Under the pieces are notes generated by a model. It saw nothing but the letters and a program-made list of their open reading frames with translations. It was not told the origin of the DNA and did no database searches. DNA of 64,000 nucleotides from positions 248,001-312,000 of the forward strand of contig NZ_CP141728.1 of assembly GCF_035621135.1 (NCBI RefSeq). The letters run 5' to 3'. Made by a program: the position numbers and the translations under genes. Source of the stretch: Sinanaerobacter sp. ZZT-01 (GTDB taxonomy: Bacteria > Bacillota > Clostridia > Peptostreptococcales > Anaerovoracaceae). Shown here in pieces: positions 2,315-25,656 of this stretch (positions within the stretch are counted from its first letter, which is position 1; every line of letters begins with the position of its first letter).

Positions 2315-2833
2315 ATGAACGGATTTTTTTTACTAATTCCATTTCTATTGGTACGCTTTGGAGTATTAAGCTTATTAAATAAGAACGGCTTAAAACGTGC
2401 AGCTTTTTTTGCCCCATTAATTAGAACAGAAAAGGCAGCGTATTGGTTTTATCAAATTTCAAACGTTCTGTTTTTCATCTATCTATTCTTCCTTAAGGTC
2501 ACGACTGAGTCGTATTGGTTTTATGCAGGTTTGGTGATATATGCATTAGGCATCGTGCTATGTCTTGCTTCCGTATTCAATTTTGCAAATCCTGCTGAAA
2601 ATGGCATTAATGTTAAGGGATTATATCAGTTTTCCCGCAACCCGATGTATGTGGCATATTTTATTTGCTTTTTAGGCTGCGTACTACTTACGCAATCGTT
2701 CCTATTATTTATAATACTGCTGATCTTCCAAATATCATCGCATTGGATCATCCTGTCCGAAGAAAGATGGTGCATAAAGGAATTTGGAGAAGAGTACAAA
2801 AGTTATATGAATAAGGTAAGACGCTATATATAA
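2315..2833 (+). CDS. Integral membrane methyltransferase, ICMT/PEMT-like
   Basis: Probably an S-adenosylmethionine-dependent membrane methyltransferase of the isoprenylcysteine carboxyl methyltransferase/phospholipid methyltransferase superfamily. About five hydrophobic segments span the 172 residues. The family signature is at the C-terminal end: SRNPMYVAYF (about 106-115), the SAM-binding region, followed by a TM hairpin and then EERWCIKEFGEEYKSY (about 148-163), with the conserved glutamates and FG-x-x-Y. An AAGGAG site ten bases upstream supports the ATG. Bacterial members mostly have unknown substrates. It is followed closely by a P-loop kinase gene. Confidence 0.75.
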   Translation: MNGFFLLIPFLLVRFGVLSLLNKNGLKRAAFFAPLIRTEKAAYWFYQISNVLFFIYLFFLKVTTESYWFYAGLVIYALGIVLCLASVFNFANPAENGINVKGLYQFSRNPMYVAYFICFLGCVLLTQSFLLFIILLIFQISSHWIILSEERWCIKEFGEEYKSYMNKVRRYI

Positions 2834-2856
2834 TCAGCAAACAGAAAGGTACTTCC

Positions 2857-3357
2857 ATGAAAAATTTATACCTAATAGGCGGCACGATGGGAGCAGGAAA
2901 AACAGCTACCTGTCAAAATCTCAAACGAAAACTGAATAACAGCGTCTTTCTGGATGGTGATTGGTGCTGGGATATGCATCCTTTTCAGGTGACTGAGGAA
3001 ACAAAGCAGATGGTATTAGAAAACATCTGTTACCTTCTGAATAACTTTATTCGGTGTTCTGCCTATGAAAACATCATATTCTGCTGGGTGATGCACCAAC
3101 AGGCTATCATTGACGATATCCTTTCACGGCTGGATACTGCCAACTGTAAGGTGCATTCTATTTCCCTGATTTGCAATGAAATAGCCTTGCGAACCCGATT
3201 GGAAAAAGACATTGCTGCCGGTATTCGCACGGAAGATGTAGTCCTCAGAAGCATGGAACGAATCCCTCTTTACGAAAAACTGAACACCTGTAAAGTGGAT
3301 GTATCCGAAATCAGTCCGGAACAAGTAGCGGATTCTATCATAAAAATTGTTAAATAG
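2857..3357 (+). CDS. P-loop kinase-like ATPase (AAA_33 type)
   Basis: A small cytoplasmic nucleotide kinase-like protein of 166 residues. The Walker A loop is GGTMGAGKTATC (8-19). A second strand carries FLDGDWCWD (32-40), where the acidic residues may position magnesium and substrate. A lid-like segment IAAGIRTEDV with nearby arginines is at about 124-133. Such proteins phosphorylate or adenylate small molecules (shikimate-kinase/chloramphenicol-phosphotransferase fold). The substrate cannot be told from sequence. It starts 23 bases after the methyltransferase and shares its direction, so the two may be co-transcribed. Confidence 0.75.
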   Translation: MKNLYLIGGTMGAGKTATCQNLKRKLNNSVFLDGDWCWDMHPFQVTEETKQMVLENICYLLNNFIRCSAYENIIFCWVMHQQAIIDDILSRLDTANCKVHSISLICNEIALRTRLEKDIAAGIRTEDVVLRSMERIPLYEKLNTCKVDVSEISPEQVADSIIKIVK

Positions 3358-19392: not shown

Positions 19393-19989
19393 TTATTGGT
19401 TCAGTTTTTGACAAATATATTTATTGTATTTCACTTTTTTTACCAACTCCTTTTGTTCCACTACTTTCCAGATTCGATATACAGTAGAAGTTATGGTAGT
19501 TGCAGTGGCTCCATACGTTAAAGCTTGGCTTATAAATGTATTTACCGTCAGAGATAGCTGAAAAGACACATATATTAATAATGGGGCAACATAAAAGAGT
19601 ATTATGGTGAACCTGCCTATAAAATCAAAAACAAACATTGCGTTTACTCTCGAATGCCTTTTTAATAAAAATGAAGTGATTACAAATTCTATAAATTTAA
19701 AAAGAATAACTGTCAAAAACCAAAATGGTGCTATTTTTAGATAAATCAAAGTACCGTATGAAGCTACAATATAGAATAAATCTGCTACAACATCAAAAGT
19801 TGCACCGAAACGAGATGTGTTCCCCGAAATTCTAGCAGCTTTACCATCTGTAAAATCCGAAAGAAAAATAAGTAAAGAAATTACGATAGGAACCAATACT
19901 CTGCCAAGGTTGTTTAGAATATAAGCATTTAGTAGGCACGTTAAAATAACCCTAGATATCGTTATCAAGTTAGGAATCCTCTTAGTCAT
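19393..19989 (-). CDS. CDP-alcohol phosphatidyltransferase family protein
   Basis: A membrane enzyme that joins a CDP-activated lipid to an alcohol, as in phosphatidylglycerol-phosphate or phosphatidylinositol-type synthesis. The catalytic motif is complete: D45-x-x-D48-G-x-x-A-R53-x8-G62-x3-D66-x3-D70. About six TM segments, 198 residues. The start used (MTKRIPNLITISR) has AAGGAG ten bases upstream and overlaps the stop of the flavodoxin gene (ATGACTAA), so the two are coupled. Pairing with a membrane-anchored flavodoxin is unusual. A broken partial copy of this gene lies at 2081-2222. Confidence 0.88.
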   Translation of the reverse strand: MTKRIPNLITISRVILTCLLNAYILNNLGRVLVPIVISLLIFLSDFTDGKAARISGNTSRFGATFDVVADLFYIVASYGTLIYLKIAPFWFLTVILFKFIEFVITSFLLKRHSRVNAMFVFDFIGRFTIILFYVAPLLIYVSFQLSLTVNTFISQALTYGATATTITSTVYRIWKVVEQKELVKKVKYNKYICQKLNQ

Positions 19990-20545
19990 TCTTCGATAAC
20001 TCCTTACCCAACTCATATGCTGTGTTTTCATTTTCTTCTTTCTTCAAATTCGTATCAAACTTAAATACTTTATAAGGTTTTACATCTTTAAGTGACTTTT
20101 CCATAGCATCAAACTCGTCCATACTGTTCATTGCTATTCCGGTAGAATACAGAACTACTTTTCCTAATGAATAATCCTTTATGCTCTTGATATAATCAAT
20201 CAATGCTTTCGACGAATTTGACCAATAGGCAGGCGAACCGAATATAACAACCTGATAACTCGAAATATCATAAGTCAATTTTTTTCCTGGATAATTCATG
20301 GTTACTTCATATCCGCTATCGTTAAGCCCTTTAGCAATTTGATGAGCCATCCGGCTGGAAATATTCGAAATTGAGGGTTGATATATAATCAAAGCTTTAC
20401 CAATTGGTTGTCCGTCGCTTTTTAGTACTTCCTCATGGTTTCCTTTCGGCAAGTTTGTTGATAAAATCATCAAGCAAAACAATACCACACATAAAATTAG
20501 TAGCACAAATATAATTCCGATAACTAAAAAAATTTTCTTTATCAT
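19982..20545 (-). CDS. Membrane-anchored flavodoxin-like protein
   Basis: An FMN-dependent electron carrier fold tethered by an N-terminal TM helix (about 4-29), with the soluble domain at 48-187. IYQPSISNISSRMA is the phosphate-binding loop and GSPAYWSNSSKALIDYI the isoalloxazine-side loop. The topology places the flavodoxin domain outside if the helix is a signal anchor, or inside if reversed; the positive residues MIKK at the N-terminus favour N-in, that is, domain outside. It is translationally coupled to the lipid synthase downstream and follows a soluble flavodoxin gene. Confidence 0.8.
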   Translation of the reverse strand: MIKKIFLVIGIIFVLLILCVVLFCLMILSTNLPKGNHEEVLKSDGQPIGKALIIYQPSISNISSRMAHQIAKGLNDSGYEVTMNYPGKKLTYDISSYQVVIFGSPAYWSNSSKALIDYIKSIKDYSLGKVVLYSTGIAMNSMDEFDAMEKSLKDVKPYKVFKFDTNLKKEENENTAYELGKELSKND

Positions 20546-20645: not shown

Positions 20646-21116
20646 CTATAAATTCAAAAGACCTTTCGCAAATATTCTGGCACTTTCCATATCTTTCTCA
20701 TCTGGATGCCCTTTTTCTCTGCCTGCTATAAATGCCCCTTTTCCTTTGAAGTTTAAATTAAATCCCAGTGGGCTATATTCACCGGAACAGCTGAACTCAC
20801 CTATTATTTTGCAGCCTTTTTCTGAAAGTTTATCTTTGACTGCATATAAATTTTTCGCCCCAAAGTATGCCGTGGTAAAAAACAGGAATACATTCTTGTT
20901 CATGTTGGGCATTTTCTCAATTAACGTATCTATCGTTTTATGGAACCCTGAACCATAGATACCCGAACCAAAGCCTATCAAGTCATACTTTGCCAGTTCT
21001 CCTATTTTGGCATCTTCAACCTTTACAATATCTGCATTCATTGTTTCTGCCATAACTTTTGCTATCTTCTTGGTATTCATTTTGTGATATGATTGATAAA
21101 TAATTAATGTTCTCAT
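20646..21116 (-). CDS. Soluble flavodoxin family protein
   Basis: A 156-residue flavodoxin. The N-terminal strand and phosphate loop read LIIYQSYHKMNTKKIAKVMA; GFGSGIYGSGFHKTIDTLI is the second FMN loop; FLFFTTAYFGAKNLYAVKDKL, broken by a turn, is the third strand region. No TM segment. Its promoter carries TGAATGA-N12-TCATTCA, a palindrome also present before the TetR gene upstream, so it is likely a target of that repressor. It probably feeds electrons to an oxidoreductase; the partner is unknown. Confidence 0.88.
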   Translation of the reverse strand: MRTLIIYQSYHKMNTKKIAKVMAETMNADIVKVEDAKIGELAKYDLIGFGSGIYGSGFHKTIDTLIEKMPNMNKNVFLFFTTAYFGAKNLYAVKDKLSEKGCKIIGEFSCSGEYSPLGFNLNFKGKGAFIAGREKGHPDEKDMESARIFAKGLLNL

Positions 21117-21309: not shown

Positions 21310-21882
21310 TTAGACCATCAAACCTTTCATGACGAACTCTGTTATGTGATCTAAAATATCGGGGAAATATTGCAATCCTATCTCTTCTTTGTGCGTATCA
21401 ATATTTATAATCGCTGTAAAAAAAGCCATTATAAATTCACGATCCATATCTGTTCTCATTTTCCCTTGTGACTGCCATTTTTCTATTAGCTCTTCAAAAT
21501 TGGTATATAAGAAATCAAATCGATCTGCCCCGTTATCTTCTCGGTATTGCTGCTCAATCTTCTTAAAGACATCTTTGTTATACCATTCTTTCAGTATAGG
21601 ATTTGAAACTATCCCTTTAATATTTAACGATAATAATTTTTTACTTAATGTTTTGGGGTCTTCATCAAGGTCAACGGACTTCATAATGCTTTTTTTTAGT
21701 AAAACGTTCTCGTTCAGAAAAATCTCCAAGAAGAGTTTCTCTTTGGATTGATAATAGTTGTAAAATGTACCGACTGCTATTCCAGCCATTTTTGTAATAT
21801 CGGAAACATTCGTATCCTTAAACCCTTTAGAACTGAATAATTCTTTTCCGCAAGTATAAAGAACCGCTTTTTTGTCTTCCAC
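21310..21882 (-). CDS. TetR-family regulator of flavodoxin unit
   Basis: A 190-residue repressor. The HTH is at about 10-57 (FSSKGFKDTNVSDITKMAGIA then VGTFYNYYQSKEKL, where FYNYY is the usual helix 3 end). The C-terminal effector domain belongs to no group I can name. Its own promoter contains TGAATGA-N12-TCATTCA, and the downstream flavodoxin promoter holds the same site, so both are probably repressed until a ligand, perhaps a redox-active or aromatic compound, binds. Confidence 0.9.
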   Translation of the reverse strand: MEDKKAVLYTCGKELFSSKGFKDTNVSDITKMAGIAVGTFYNYYQSKEKLFLEIFLNENVLLKKSIMKSVDLDEDPKTLSKKLLSLNIKGIVSNPILKEWYNKDVFKKIEQQYREDNGADRFDFLYTNFEELIEKWQSQGKMRTDMDREFIMAFFTAIINIDTHKEEIGLQYFPDILDHITEFVMKGLMV

Positions 21883-21927: not shown

Positions 21928-21954
21928 TATTATAGTACAGCTATTATTTTTTGT

Positions 21955-22131
21955 CAATTTAATTTTTGGTATAAGTATTTAAGTTGTTTAAGATACTCTA
22001 TTTGTTCCTTCTCTGTTTTCTTAGAGTGAGTTCTTCACTGCATGAGCCATGATGTCACCTACCATAGGGCACCAAGATAGCAGATTTCTCCCTTGATAAG
22101 ATGTCCGGTAATGCTGTTTTGCAATGCGATA
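21955..22131 (-). pseudogene. Coding-like debris, unidentified
   Basis: One minus-strand frame reads SYQGRNLLSWCPMVGDIM and AHAVKNSL before a stop. A second frame ends EQIEYLKQLKYLYQKLN with a stop. Both look like protein-coding remains joined by a frameshift, but the family is not recognised. It lies beyond the end of the HelD operon. Confidence 0.35.
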
Positions 22132-22353
22132 TTAGTCCTCGTCAAATATCTCTACGACCTCAAACCCCTCCTCGTTAATGGCATCACACAATTCATCTTC
22201 AGTTAATATACCACGGCCGTACTCCACAAGAATGGATTCTTCTTCTAAATTTAACATAACTTTATCCACGCCGCTCATACCCTCTAAAATTCGGGATACG
22301 GCACTACCCATTGGCATATTGTCCATGCCCTCAACAACGATAACCTTTTTCAT
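22132..22353 (-). CDS. HMA-like small protein lacking the CxxC metal site
   Basis: 73 residues with the beta-alpha-beta-beta-alpha-beta pattern of heavy-metal-associated (copper chaperone) domains: KVIVVEGM, SAVSRILEGMSGV, VMLNLEEESILVEY, TEDELCDAINEEGFEV. Where a chaperone has GMTCxxC, this protein has G9-M10-D-N12-M-P-M15, so both metal cysteines are replaced. It is therefore unlikely to carry Cu(I) in the usual way; methionines may bind weakly, or the domain may serve in protein contacts. It is the last gene of the HelD operon, nine bases after the carrier-like gene, with a GGAGG site. Confidence 0.75.
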   Translation of the reverse strand: MKKVIVVEGMDNMPMGSAVSRILEGMSGVDKVMLNLEEESILVEYGRGILTEDELCDAINEEGFEVVEIFDED

Positions 22354-22362
22354 CGTTTCCTC

Positions 22363-22596
22363 CTATTCTGCAATCAGTGCATCCACATATTTGACCACAT
22401 CATTTACTGTCCGAAATGTATGGACATCTTCATCATGAATTGTCACCTCAAAACGCTTTTCAATTTTAATCATCAGTTTTGCAATATCAATTGGCTCAAT
22501 ATCGTATTCCGGTGTTAGTGGCGTTCTGCCACTTAATTCATTTTCAGAAGCACTTATGACCTCACACAGCAAAGAAATAATAATATCCAACGTCAT
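22363..22596 (-). CDS. Acyl-carrier-protein-like protein lacking the PPant serine
   Basis: 77 residues aligning through the acyl carrier fold: PLTPEYDIEPIDIAKLM (26-42), IEKRFEVTIHDEDV (45-58) and TVNDVVKYVDALI (63-75). The phosphopantetheine attachment motif D-S-L is E34-P35-I36, so the modified serine is proline and the protein cannot be a normal acyl carrier. The ATG overlaps the HelD stop (ATGA), giving tight coupling. A structural or regulatory role beside HelD is possible; no precedent is known to me. Confidence 0.75.
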   Translation of the reverse strand: MTLDIIISLLCEVISASENELSGRTPLTPEYDIEPIDIAKLMIKIEKRFEVTIHDEDVHTFRTVNDVVKYVDALIAE

Positions 22597-24836
22597 ATCT
22601 CGATACCTCCTTGAATGAATGCACTTTTCTCACCGGTATAAAATAGATTGAGACGATGCAAAGCTCGGGTGCTGGCAATGTACAGCAGCTTTTTATCATC
22701 AACGGAATGATAACTCTCTTTATTTGCACCGTAAATTAACACAGAATCAAATTCTAATCCTTTTGACATAGTGATCGGGATAATAAATACTCCTGCTGTA
22801 TTCAGGTCTTCACCTGAGTGAACTAAATGAAGACTCAATCTATCTTTTAATCGACGATAAAGGGATTCTGATTCCTGTGCATCCTTACATATAATTCCGA
22901 TGGATTGGTAGCCTTGGTTTTTACTATAAACAGCTTCTTCGATTATTTTTCCATCGAGCAAATCTATGCTATCAGCTTTGATAACCTGCGGTATGTCACC
23001 GCTGCGGTTAAAACTTTCAAAGAGCGTGGCATCATCCAAAAACTGCATACTGAATGAAAGTATCTCTTTGGTGCATCGAAAACTTTTATTCATGGCCATT
23101 AAGCAAGAGCTGTTAGGCTGTAAAATATTAGTAATTCTCTCATATAGGCTCATGGTCTCCTGCTTTTCAATCGTTTGATTGATATCACCCAATATGGTAT
23201 ATCGTGCATTTGGAAACAATTGCTTTAATATCTCAAAATGAAGATCGTAGTAGTCTTGTGCTTCATCCACTACAACCTGCCGGATGTTCCTGTAGGTATC
23301 ATTTGTACCAATCAATAACTGCAAATAAGTTACAGCCAAAGCATCCTCATTTTGAAGAGTAGAATCTGTGAGTTGTTCCTTTGAGTAGGACAGTATTTTC
23401 TCAATGTTGTTTGGCAACTCAGTTTCTGCTGAAAGAGAAAGCAATAAATTATCTGAGTTTATCAATTTTTTGTAAAGTGAAACAGGATTTAATTTTATAA
23501 ATTCATCAACTTTTTGAGCAAGAAGAGTGCTTTCTTTGATAGACAGTTCTCTTGCATATTCTTCCCAATCAAAAGGATGCTCAGGATCTTCCCTTGCTTG
23601 CCGCAACAGTTTAGGCATCCGACCTTTACGCATCTCATGTATTTCGTTAAAAATATGCTGGCGTAGATGGCTCAGTTTTATCGCCAAGCTACTTCCGTTC
23701 ATTTGAAGCACACGATTTTTTAAATACTGCCCTGTAAAAACGGTTTTTCCATCATACTCAATATCAGGAAAGACGATATGAGATGTTGGAAGGCTGTCTG
23801 CATATCTGTTTAGTATTCTGCCAAATGCTTTGGACATTTTGAATTCCATTGCTTGCTTTTGCAGTGCTTTTGCCGAGGATGATGCACAGGAAATCAGCAT
23901 TTCAGTTTGGTGATAGCGAGACTGAAATGCCGGCTTGTCTGGTAAACTATCCGTTATCAGATCATCAAACACAATAGATTTCACTTCATCCTCACCCAGC
24001 TCAGGCAATACATTGGAAATATATTCTTCGAACAGTGTATTAGGAGATAGAATAATAATGTCAGATGACTTCAGGCGACTTGAAAGCCCCTGATATTTGA
24101 GGTAAGCCACACGATGTAAAGCAATAGAGGTTTTGCCACTTCCGGCAATTCCCTGAACCATAAGCAGGTCGTGGGTACCATCTCGGATGGCGATATCTTG
24201 ATCCTTCTGGATGGTTTCTACAATGCTTTTCATTTTGCTGGAGGTATTTCCGGATAGCATTTTGCGTAAAAATTCATCTGCAATCTGAACATCGGCATCA
24301 AAAAAGTACTCGAAGACTCCTTTTTTTATTTCATATTGCCGTTTCAGACCAATATCTCCCGTAATGCGGCCACCCGGTGCATCATAATGTGCATTTCCGG
24401 TTTCAAAACGGTAAAATAGGCTGGCAATAGGAGAACGCCAATCGTAGATAATAATTCCTTTCTCCTGATCATTAAATAATGTTCCTCTGCCAATATAGAC
24501 TTTTTCGTACTGTTCTTCAGCCTCCATACAAAAATCAATTCGGGCGAAATAGGCTGACTGTGATAATCGTTCCAGCAACTGGATCGTTTTAGTACTGGAT
24601 TCTATTGCAAAAGTATTACTGGCAAGCGGTTGATAGAATTGGCTTAACTGTACCGCTCCGTCAAAATTATCTGCGGAGTGGGAGGCATTCTCCCACATAT
24701 CCCGATTAGTTTCTCTTAAATCTTCTATGCTTTTGGAGTTATCTTTTTTAGCATCCTCCAATTGCGAGTGAATAACTTCAAGAATCTCATTGTAATGAGC
24801 AAGTTCAGTATTTAATACCTGTTCATAGTTTTCCAA
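22593..24836 (-). CDS. HelD-like RNA polymerase recycling ATPase (SF1)
   Basis: A 747-residue UvrD/Rep-like ATPase of the HelD type, which in Bacillus and actinobacteria removes stalled RNA polymerase from nucleic acid and can give rifamycin tolerance. A long N-terminal coiled coil (about 1-55) represents the arm that enters the secondary channel. Then come IIIYDWRSPIASLFYRFE (about 123-140), Walker A GIAGSGKTS (about 229-237), VVDEAQDYYDL (Walker B, motif II), GDINQTIEKQ (motif III), SFRCTKEI (motif IV), SKGLEFDSVLI (motif V) and YIASTRALHRL (motif VI). It starts 47 bases after the TetR stop. Confidence 0.88.
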   Translation of the reverse strand: MENYEQVLNTELAHYNEILEVIHSQLEDAKKDNSKSIEDLRETNRDMWENASHSADNFDGAVQLSQFYQPLASNTFAIESSTKTIQLLERLSQSAYFARIDFCMEAEEQYEKVYIGRGTLFNDQEKGIIIYDWRSPIASLFYRFETGNAHYDAPGGRITGDIGLKRQYEIKKGVFEYFFDADVQIADEFLRKMLSGNTSSKMKSIVETIQKDQDIAIRDGTHDLLMVQGIAGSGKTSIALHRVAYLKYQGLSSRLKSSDIIILSPNTLFEEYISNVLPELGEDEVKSIVFDDLITDSLPDKPAFQSRYHQTEMLISCASSSAKALQKQAMEFKMSKAFGRILNRYADSLPTSHIVFPDIEYDGKTVFTGQYLKNRVLQMNGSSLAIKLSHLRQHIFNEIHEMRKGRMPKLLRQAREDPEHPFDWEEYARELSIKESTLLAQKVDEFIKLNPVSLYKKLINSDNLLLSLSAETELPNNIEKILSYSKEQLTDSTLQNEDALAVTYLQLLIGTNDTYRNIRQVVVDEAQDYYDLHFEILKQLFPNARYTILGDINQTIEKQETMSLYERITNILQPNSSCLMAMNKSFRCTKEILSFSMQFLDDATLFESFNRSGDIPQVIKADSIDLLDGKIIEEAVYSKNQGYQSIGIICKDAQESESLYRRLKDRLSLHLVHSGEDLNTAGVFIIPITMSKGLEFDSVLIYGANKESYHSVDDKKLLYIASTRALHRLNLFYTGEKSAFIQGGIEI

Positions 24837-24883
24837 GTAAACACCTCATTTCTATACAGCATATTTATTTTAAATGATTGCAC

Positions 24884-25486
24884 CTAATCATTACTTATAA
24901 GACATAATCGAAACATACGGACGGCTTCACGGGTAATATAAACCTTTAGCTCAGCTTCATTTTGGATTAAACCTCTGCCTAAAAGATAATTTGATATTTC
25001 ACCCACAACGTAGCAGTGCGTATTATGAAGCACTCGTTTGCTCGTATCTGCATTTGGATATTGTCCATAAAGTTCTTTCCATATTTGGGATATATATTGA
25101 TTCAGCATTTTGTTTGTAGCTTCTGTAGCTTCAATATCTCCCTGCGGCCGGTCACCATCAATATATTCATGCCATGCCAGTCGGAACCAGCCTTTATTAT
25201 CCAGATACATTTCAACAAAGGCTTCAAAAAAATAGGAAAGGCGCATTTCTGCAGTATTTGCTATATCCAGCTTTTTTGTAAGCATTTTCATAAATATCTC
25301 CTGTATGGCAGCATGTGTTTCCCATAACAAATCATTATATGAGGGAAAGTAATTATATAAATTTGTATGGGCGCATCCTAATGTCCGGGCTATCTCCCGA
25401 AGATTAAGACCTCGCAAGTCGCTCTTATTTCGCATCAGTTCAAGAGCTGTTTCAACAATTTGCTCTTTTGTTATATTCTTTTTCAT
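24884..25486 (-). CDS. TetR-family regulator of HelD operon (WHG-type C-domain)
   Basis: A 200-residue repressor. N-terminal HTH: LNLREIARTLGCAHTNLYNYF (about 25-45). The C-terminal domain has W-x-x-G-like spacing (GWFRLAWHEYIDG) typical of a subgroup of TetR proteins. Two overlapping ATTACC-N3-GGTAAT palindromes occupy its promoter. It is the first gene on the same strand as helD, which follows after 47 bases without a visible terminator. TetR, HelD, ACP-like and HMA-like genes therefore probably form one autoregulated operon. Confidence 0.85.
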   Translation of the reverse strand: MKKNITKEQIVETALELMRNKSDLRGLNLREIARTLGCAHTNLYNYFPSYNDLLWETHAAIQEIFMKMLTKKLDIANTAEMRLSYFFEAFVEMYLDNKGWFRLAWHEYIDGDRPQGDIEATEATNKMLNQYISQIWKELYGQYPNADTSKRVLHNTHCYVVGEISNYLLGRGLIQNEAELKVYITREAVRMFRLCLISND

Positions 25487-25504
25487 TTTTTACCTCCGAG
25501 TTAT

Positions 25505-25532
25505 ATTACCGTCGGTAATTACCATCGGTAAT
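25505..25532. promoter_or_regulatory. Tandem overlapping TetR operators
   Basis: ATTACC-GTC-GGTAAT (25505-25519) and ATTACC-ATC-GGTAAT (25518-25532) overlap by two bases about 20-45 bp upstream of the TetR start. Two dyads offset by 13 bp are consistent with cooperative binding of two dimers. Confidence 0.8.
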
Positions 25533-25656
25533 ATAAGCATACTACCCTCATTTCTTTTTGTCAAGAATTTGCTACTATTCGTCATTGCATATATAATTGA
25601 TGTATATTGCTTTGTCGAAAGGAAGTTGGATATAGATTATATTTCTGTATTCATTT

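Follow-up and report, generated by a model that had tools for sequence, protein, structure and literature searches.

The motor protein HelD frees RNA polymerase that has stalled, and in some bacteria it also shields the enzyme from rifampicin. Besides the delta subunit of RNA polymerase, which is small and acidic, we know of little that tunes HelD activity. Here we describe a helD locus from Sinanaerobacter sp. ZZT-01, in which helD is followed by a gene for a small protein that resembles an acyl carrier protein (ACP) and lacks the serine to which phosphopantetheine is attached. The locus lies in a stretch of 64,000 nucleotides (NZ_CP141728.1, positions 248,001 to 312,000; assembly GCF_035621135.1), hereafter the window, whose positions serve as coordinates throughout. 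Comparison with other genomes makes it probable that this is a TetR-controlled operon for one HelD subfamily, with a dedicated, serine-less partner of the ACP fold.

The helD gene of Bacillus subtilis is controlled by two convergent rifampicin-sensing promoters, and HelD carries a coiled-coil N-terminal arm besides its ATPase (PMC12802891). Some HelDs are known to act in rifamycin tolerance (PMC10719064, PMC12802891). Class I enzymes are marked by the motif DWR[A/S]P in the N-terminal domain, and in Bacilli the delta subunit assists HelD as an auxiliary protein (PMC8655204). A carrier protein acts on an ATPase in a different setting: AcpP attaches to the MukB coiled coils, MukB requires it for ATPase activity, and lysine or arginine mutants of MukB lose AcpP (PMC8602292). 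Helix II of ACP forms an acidic face that is expected to read basic patches on partner proteins (PMC3340395).

The window HelD scores well above the curated NCBIfam HelD_BACSU cut-off (568 bits against 419), and matches B. subtilis HelD (YvgS; PDB 6wvk, chain H) over residues 40–742 with an E value of 6e-116. It contains DWRSP at residue 132, along with the superfamily 1 ATPase motifs GIAGSGKT (Walker A), DEAQDY, GDINQ, KSFRCT, and TRALH. DWRSP and the score over the curated cut-off place the protein, by sequence, in class I. Recycling of RNA polymerase is the expected activity. Unlike B. subtilis helD, the window gene is followed by the carrier-like gene and, at some loci including this one, preceded by a TetR gene. 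(Models of defence systems gave weak UvrD-type matches for HelD only, and none for the other three proteins encoded here.)

Four closely spaced genes lie on the minus strand in the order tetR, helD, the carrier-like gene, and a gene for a protein resembling HMA copper chaperones. The start of the carrier-like gene overlaps the end of helD by ATGA, and its Shine-Dalgarno-like sequence, AAGGAGGT, sits within the 3' end of helD. The HMA-like gene begins nine bases after the carrier-like gene, with an AGGAGG of its own. From this spacing we infer one transcript. The initial annotation, made from the sequence alone, had described this row with its overlap and its gap; the open reading frame coordinates bear it out, and the arrangement is real.

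The carrier-like protein exceeds the Pfam cut-off for the PP-binding domain (37.5 bits against 20.8), but not the NCBIfam cut-off for acyl carriers (best score 39.8 bits against 71). Its predicted model (pLDDT 89.4) shows the four-helix carrier fold. The 50 Foldseek matches listed have TMq values of 0.79 to 0.90 and are, to judge by their titles, carrier proteins or complexes holding one. In predicted fold and overall sequence, then, the protein resembles type II AcpP. It and its relatives differ from AcpP in that most lack the phosphopantetheine serine, all those aligned lack the aspartate before it, helix II is charge-reversed at two positions, and the helix III region carries a family-specific I-H-D-E-D-V-H-T-F. 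With two tested features found lacking, we would not admit the protein to the ACP family proper, although the ACP fold appears to be kept. The genome has an ordinary ACP of its own with D-S-L, so the carrier-like gene is not the sole ACP-like gene there. (At G000:C1:1541019-1558370 in the same genome, very long open frames of 1045 to 2677 residues contain five PP-binding domains and suggest a cluster for a non-ribosomal peptide or a polyketide.)

The changed residues were compared by aligning 14 family members (HelD-linked carrier-like proteins) with 34 ordinary ACPs. The latter comprise two of the eight PP-binding places in the window genome, and 16 from each of two family surveys in which more existed; their sources are thus the window genome and two families, and some are near-copies of one another. 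Helix II positions are given in Escherichia coli ACP numbering. The initial annotation had read E34-P35-I36 in place of D-S-L, as the alignment confirms. Only one of the 14 family members has the phosphopantetheine serine and none has the preceding aspartate, whereas both residues are present in all 34 ordinary ACPs. Lysine or arginine occupies the E41 and E48 positions in 14/14 family members, against glutamate at E41 and glutamate or aspartate at E48 in 34/34. Window position 59 is histidine in 12/14 and glutamate in every ordinary ACP. The net charge of helix II ranges from -1 to +2 in the family; it is -5 in all 34 ordinary ACPs. The M44 position is isoleucine in 12/14; in ACP, M44I has an intermediate effect on contact with SpoT (PMC3340395).

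Across all 17 loci with a HelD-linked carrier, the serine is gone from 16: the site holds proline in eight, alanine in five, and asparagine, lysine, histidine, or serine in one each. (Two of these loci, L135 and L136, enter only such counts of 17 and not the 14-row alignments; by eye, their carriers have lysine at both helix II positions.) Metal binding by the histidines of I-H-D-E-x-V-H-T-F is not favoured: H54 and H59 are both tyrosine in L128 and variable elsewhere. In five carriers the C-terminal tail is longer, includes an acidic stretch, and finishes with W-[YFH]-Y or a near variant, namely L117 (GWYYS), L118 (WWHYS), L124 (GWFYK), L135 (AWFYE), and L136 (AWYYEY). The window protein has no such tail. 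This shared aromatic end could be a docking peptide.

How widely does the pair recur? A scan of HelD contigs with exact short peptides, a method blind to distant relatives, gave four loci: L002 from Anaerovorax odorimutans (the same contig as L006 and L116), L003 from Desulfosporosinus sp. FKB, L004 from an Oscillospiraceae metagenome-assembled genome (MAG), and L005 from a Neobacillus MAG. All four genes are present in L002 and L003. L005 starts inside helD and has both small genes; L004 starts near helD and lacks the HMA-like gene, and its carrier-like gene encodes T-S-L. HelD is 86% identical between the window and Desulfosporosinus, members of different families, which suggests horizontal transfer between these lineages.

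A profile built from eight carriers (A1) was then searched against five overlapping sets: 148 genomes of the window's family, and sets of 22, 398 (the phylum, window genome included), 54, and 25 genomes. Family-level matches were found in 4/148, 3/22, 3/398 (the window's own among them), 4/54, and 3/25 genomes, or 14 distinct genomes; in all 14, the carrier gene lies behind helD. HelD-linked carriers scored 70 to 141 bits and ordinary ACPs at most 60 bits in the searches of 148 and 22 genomes, the threshold hiding ordinary ACP scores in the other three. With L003, L004, and L005 added, the pair occurs at 17 loci across Bacillota, so it is no solitary neighbourhood. The genomes searched are samples rather than a full census; at the threshold used, a genome from the window's own genus (G708) gave an ordinary ACP only. 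At one locus (L119, 5229-6026) an IS110 transposase gene (PF01548, 76.4 bits) lies on the opposite strand between helD and the carrier gene, both of which remain open.

Neither the plasmids searched nor one scan of viral contigs yielded a carrier relative, and the HelDs of plasmids (29/29 records) and phages (1/1) are below 60% identity. On these checks, a mobile-element origin was rejected. Among the titles and abstract starts listed by literature searches, which were noisy since "HelD" also matches "held", there was no report pairing HelD with a carrier-like protein and no fitting report on serine-less carrier proteins; nor is the arrangement described in the passages searched of PMC8655204 and PMC12802891.

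The carrier gene is characteristic of one HelD clade. In a quick, midpoint-rooted tree of 67 HelD rows, 15 form one clade (SH-aLRT 100), and 14 of these carry the carrier gene. A profile search covering up to about 1.5 kb on each side found it at 0/52 other HelD loci, four of which (L037, L041, L047, and L048) have fewer than 700 bases downstream. Parsimony requires two changes, against a mean of 13.0 in shuffles, and 0/500 shuffles were as low. The simplest history, on present sequences, is one gain and one loss. The early branches L114 and L130 have proline at the serine site. By simple parsimony done by hand, this suggests that loss of the serine preceded diversification of the clade, and that the residue in L004 may be a secondary state. 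The DWR[A/S]P motif is found in 13/15 clade rows; L005 is truncated by its contig, and L124 has no match to the pattern. L113, a near-copy of L114 with helD in two frames and partly masked, was left out of the alignments and the tree. Both L114 and L113 encode about 40 additional in-frame residues in the C-terminal part of HelD.

Are the small proteins decaying, or do they serve a new purpose? Ratios of non-synonymous to synonymous substitution (dN/dS) were estimated for the close set of loci. By the NG86 method they are 0.03 to 0.16 for the carrier and HMA genes (one pair saturated) and 0.09 to 0.12 for tetR. The highest value by maximum likelihood or YN00 is 0.25, in one HMA pair. For helD the range is 0.13 to 0.20, two NG86 and two YN00 values set aside. 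No carrier gene has an internal stop in the 17 loci read (L113 partly masked). The initial annotation had proposed repurposing, and had allowed that homologues elsewhere retaining D-S-L and CxxC would point to simple decay. Such homologues do exist; the substitutions conserved family-wide speak against decay, which was rejected on these residues and on dN/dS values far below 1. Repurposing is well supported by sequence for the carrier-like protein, with its serine missing from 16/17, purifying selection, and change of helix charge. For the HMA-like protein, also under purifying selection but known from four close loci, it is plausible.

The presumed regulator is a TetR-type protein (Table 1). 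Its TetR_N score lies slightly below the Pfam cut-off, and homologues stand directly before helD in 5/17 loci (the window, L002, L003, L113, and L114), a count in which L004, L005, L128, L130, and L135 could be judged over a few hundred bases at most, or not at all. Two putative operators, TTACCGTCGGTAA (25506-25518) and TTACCATCGGTAA (25519-25531), abut directly after a TTGACA-17-TATGCT site (25564-25536, minus strand), and together form an inverted repeat of 18+18 nucleotides, 89% complementary. The window contains three matches to TTACCRWYGGTAA with at most one mismatch, against 0.23 expected; the two exact ones are these operators. The looser TTACCNNNGGTAA has one further match, far away. 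Two abutting TTACCNNNGGTAA sites lie behind the -10 region in 5/5 loci with this TetR, and the pattern occurs in 0/13 other clade loci (L004 and L005 among them having practically no upstream sequence). The tandem operators of the initial annotation are thus found again wherever this TetR is, and the candidate repressor has, as TetR proteins do, a palindromic operator-like site in its own apparent promoter.

Table 1. Features of the helD locus in window coordinates.
Feature	Position	Strand	Basis
TetR-type repressor, 200 aa	24884-25486	-	Open reading frame; Pfam TetR_N 20.5 bits (cut-off 24)
HelD, class I by sequence, 747 aa, TTG start	22593-24836	-	NCBIfam HelD_BACSU 568 bits; PDB 6wvk chain H; motifs
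Serine-less carrier-like protein, 77 aa, E-P-I at phosphopantetheine site	22363-22596	-	Pfam PP-binding 37.5 bits; predicted model; Foldseek
HMA/CopZ-like protein, 73 aa, N12 and M15 for metal cysteines	22132-22353	-	NCBIfam CopZ 38.5 bits (cut-off 91); predicted model; Foldseek
Sigma-70-type promoter-like site TTGACA-17-TATGCT, for the whole gene row	25536-25564	-	Consensus scan, 10/12 matches
Two abutting 13-bp putative operators (two copies of TTACCNNNGGTAA), immediately after the -10 hexamer	25506-25531		Pattern search; 5/5 loci with the same TetR

In a general scan, with no search aimed at the RAE or convergent promoter pair that precedes helD in rifampicin-induced HelD/HelR systems, promoter-like sites are no more frequent in this region than in shuffled sequence (15 against a mean of 13.7). 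The promoter call therefore rests on position, and on the same layout being readable before tetR in L002, L003, L113, and L114. Recurrence of the paired sites and of the gene order in other genomes is a stronger argument than the chance statistics. Outside the close set, TetR with its double operator is shared by one distant lineage, that of L113 and L114. As the tree is drawn, the HelD of L114 branches off first within the clade, so this pairing of TetR with HelD appears either old or transferred.

The HMA-like protein reaches neither the Pfam HMA cut-off (17.7 bits against 24.8) nor those of the NCBIfam CopZ models (best, 38.5 bits against 91). It is similar in length to the CopZ/HMA copper chaperones, and its predicted model, weaker than that of the carrier-like protein (pLDDT 76.6), has their beta-alpha-beta-beta-alpha-beta order; among the matches listed by Foldseek, those to HMA proteins have TMq values of 0.56 to 0.70. 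It differs from the chaperones at the metal site. Alignment with a CxxC relative upholds the earlier reading that N12 and M15 stand where the cysteines should be, and N-x-x-M is kept in 4/4 loci with this gene, none of which has CxxC. A profile search of a sample of 291 genomes of the class gave, besides the window, one match at 1e-10: a CxxC HMA domain in a P-type ATPase. The gene is best regarded as added locally rather than as core. (In L004 its place after the carrier-like gene, at 2555-3075, is taken by a likely toxin-antitoxin pair, made up of a DUF6290 gene and one for a ParE-type toxin.)

These results suggest a model. TetR would occupy both operators, covering the start of transcription, until displaced by a small molecule; the motor and its carrier-like partner would then be made together. 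Using its altered helix II and helix III, the partner would bind HelD, or RNA polymerase beside HelD, and so govern the grip of HelD, its ATP hydrolysis, or its release. The HMA-like protein would be a younger accessory, added in one sub-branch. By analogy, the partner would perhaps set HelD activity as AcpP does that of the SMC ATPase MukB, the nearest working precedent: in both cases the ATPase has an antiparallel coiled coil, and a carrier fold is its actual or proposed partner. AcpP, however, is a working carrier shared with fatty-acid synthesis, whereas the protein here would be dedicated, is serine-less, and has a far less acidic helix II. The delta subunit, the known helper of HelD in Bacilli, offers a second likeness as an auxiliary; the carrier-like protein, itself a proposed auxiliary, belongs to a different protein family.

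A bolder version, which we hold tentatively, is that one ancient HelD subfamily is a two-part machine whose second part is a former carrier, its recognition face recharged to clamp a transcription motor; and that some lineages have coupled it to TetR and to an HMA fold without its metal site, giving an inducible kit that rescues RNA polymerase when it stalls or is blocked by a drug. The strongest part of the proposal is the carrier-like protein as a mark of the HelD subfamily, with the HMA-like protein and TetR attached to parts of it.

Several observations weigh against the proposed operon with a dedicated partner. The HelD of L120 falls within the clade without a carrier gene (its genome, G507, 80% complete, showed an ordinary ACP only), so the partner was dispensable at least once. 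The L004 carrier keeps the serine (T-S-L) and could in principle still be loaded. Because the ordinary ACPs are partly near-copies from few sources, 34/34 overstates their independence. Moreover, solved ACP structures show lysine or arginine at E49, and one aspartate at E41; E49, which is lysine or arginine in 12/14 family members, is therefore not diagnostic. TetR is present in just 5/17 loci, so TetR control is not part of the core, and the HMA-like gene in 4/17, all in the close set. Thirty clade-specific HelD residues are scattered with no common docking surface, and the attempt to locate a docking site from them was dropped for want of a single patch. Finally, delta subunit matches occur in 6/16 genomes with this HelD clade (five over the cut-off) and not in the other ten. 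This is no clean pattern of exclusion, and a partner that substitutes for the delta subunit was rejected.

The partner might act in the opposite sense. As a brake, it would hold HelD inactive or strip it from RNA polymerase so that the recycled enzyme restarts, and release of TetR would then give a self-limiting pulse. The same genetic evidence serves this reading; co-translation fits an inhibitor as well as an activator, and sequence does not separate the two. For mycobacterial HelD, PMC11464796 describes the release of polymerase as having had no known mechanism before that study. That L120 keeps HelD without the carrier gene is mildly against an essential brake, and we regard this alternative as rather unlikely.

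Less probable again is a partner that serves something other than HelD, for instance an unrelated complex that is merely co-regulated. The case for HelD binding is made from sequence, and the HMA-like gene shows that the operon can gain genes. Nevertheless, 14/14 genomes keep the carrier family with HelD while other neighbours vary, and TetR is not always present, so shared TetR regulation is not what keeps the pair together.

It is more doubtful still that the protein carries a group, by a non-standard route or in some species, and so reports fatty-acid or metabolic state to HelD. L004 with its T-S-L, and the intact fold in the model of the window protein, would fit; a serine missing from 16/17, an aspartate missing from 14/14, and the altered charge of the helix that partners read would not. 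Even the S36T change in E. coli ACP prevents modification (PMC3340395). Hardly credible, lastly, are two decayed hitch-hikers without function behind helD: both proteins have lost their defining residues and L120 does without the carrier gene, but dN/dS is far below 1, family residues are kept in 14/14, and internal stops are absent from the 17 loci (L113 partly masked).

A dedicated serine-less partner for HelD would matter in more than one way. Small and traceable by sequence across Bacillota, it would offer a way in to experiments that need just two purified proteins. If the proposal is true, this would clearly exemplify how a carrier fold from core metabolism lost its chemistry to become a protein-binding part, with the changed residues listed. 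Recurrence in distantly related bacteria suggests just that: an old metabolic fold turned dedicated partner of the transcription machinery. Such genes are likely annotated simply as acyl carrier proteins, given their PP-binding score, and hence hidden.

A second TetR-type gene (21310-21882) lies nearby in the window. It is preceded by a perfect promoter-like site, TTGACA-17-TATAAT (12/12), at 21929-21957 on the minus strand. Beside it are a flavodoxin-like gene (20646-21116) and a weaker flavodoxin-like gene (19982-20545).

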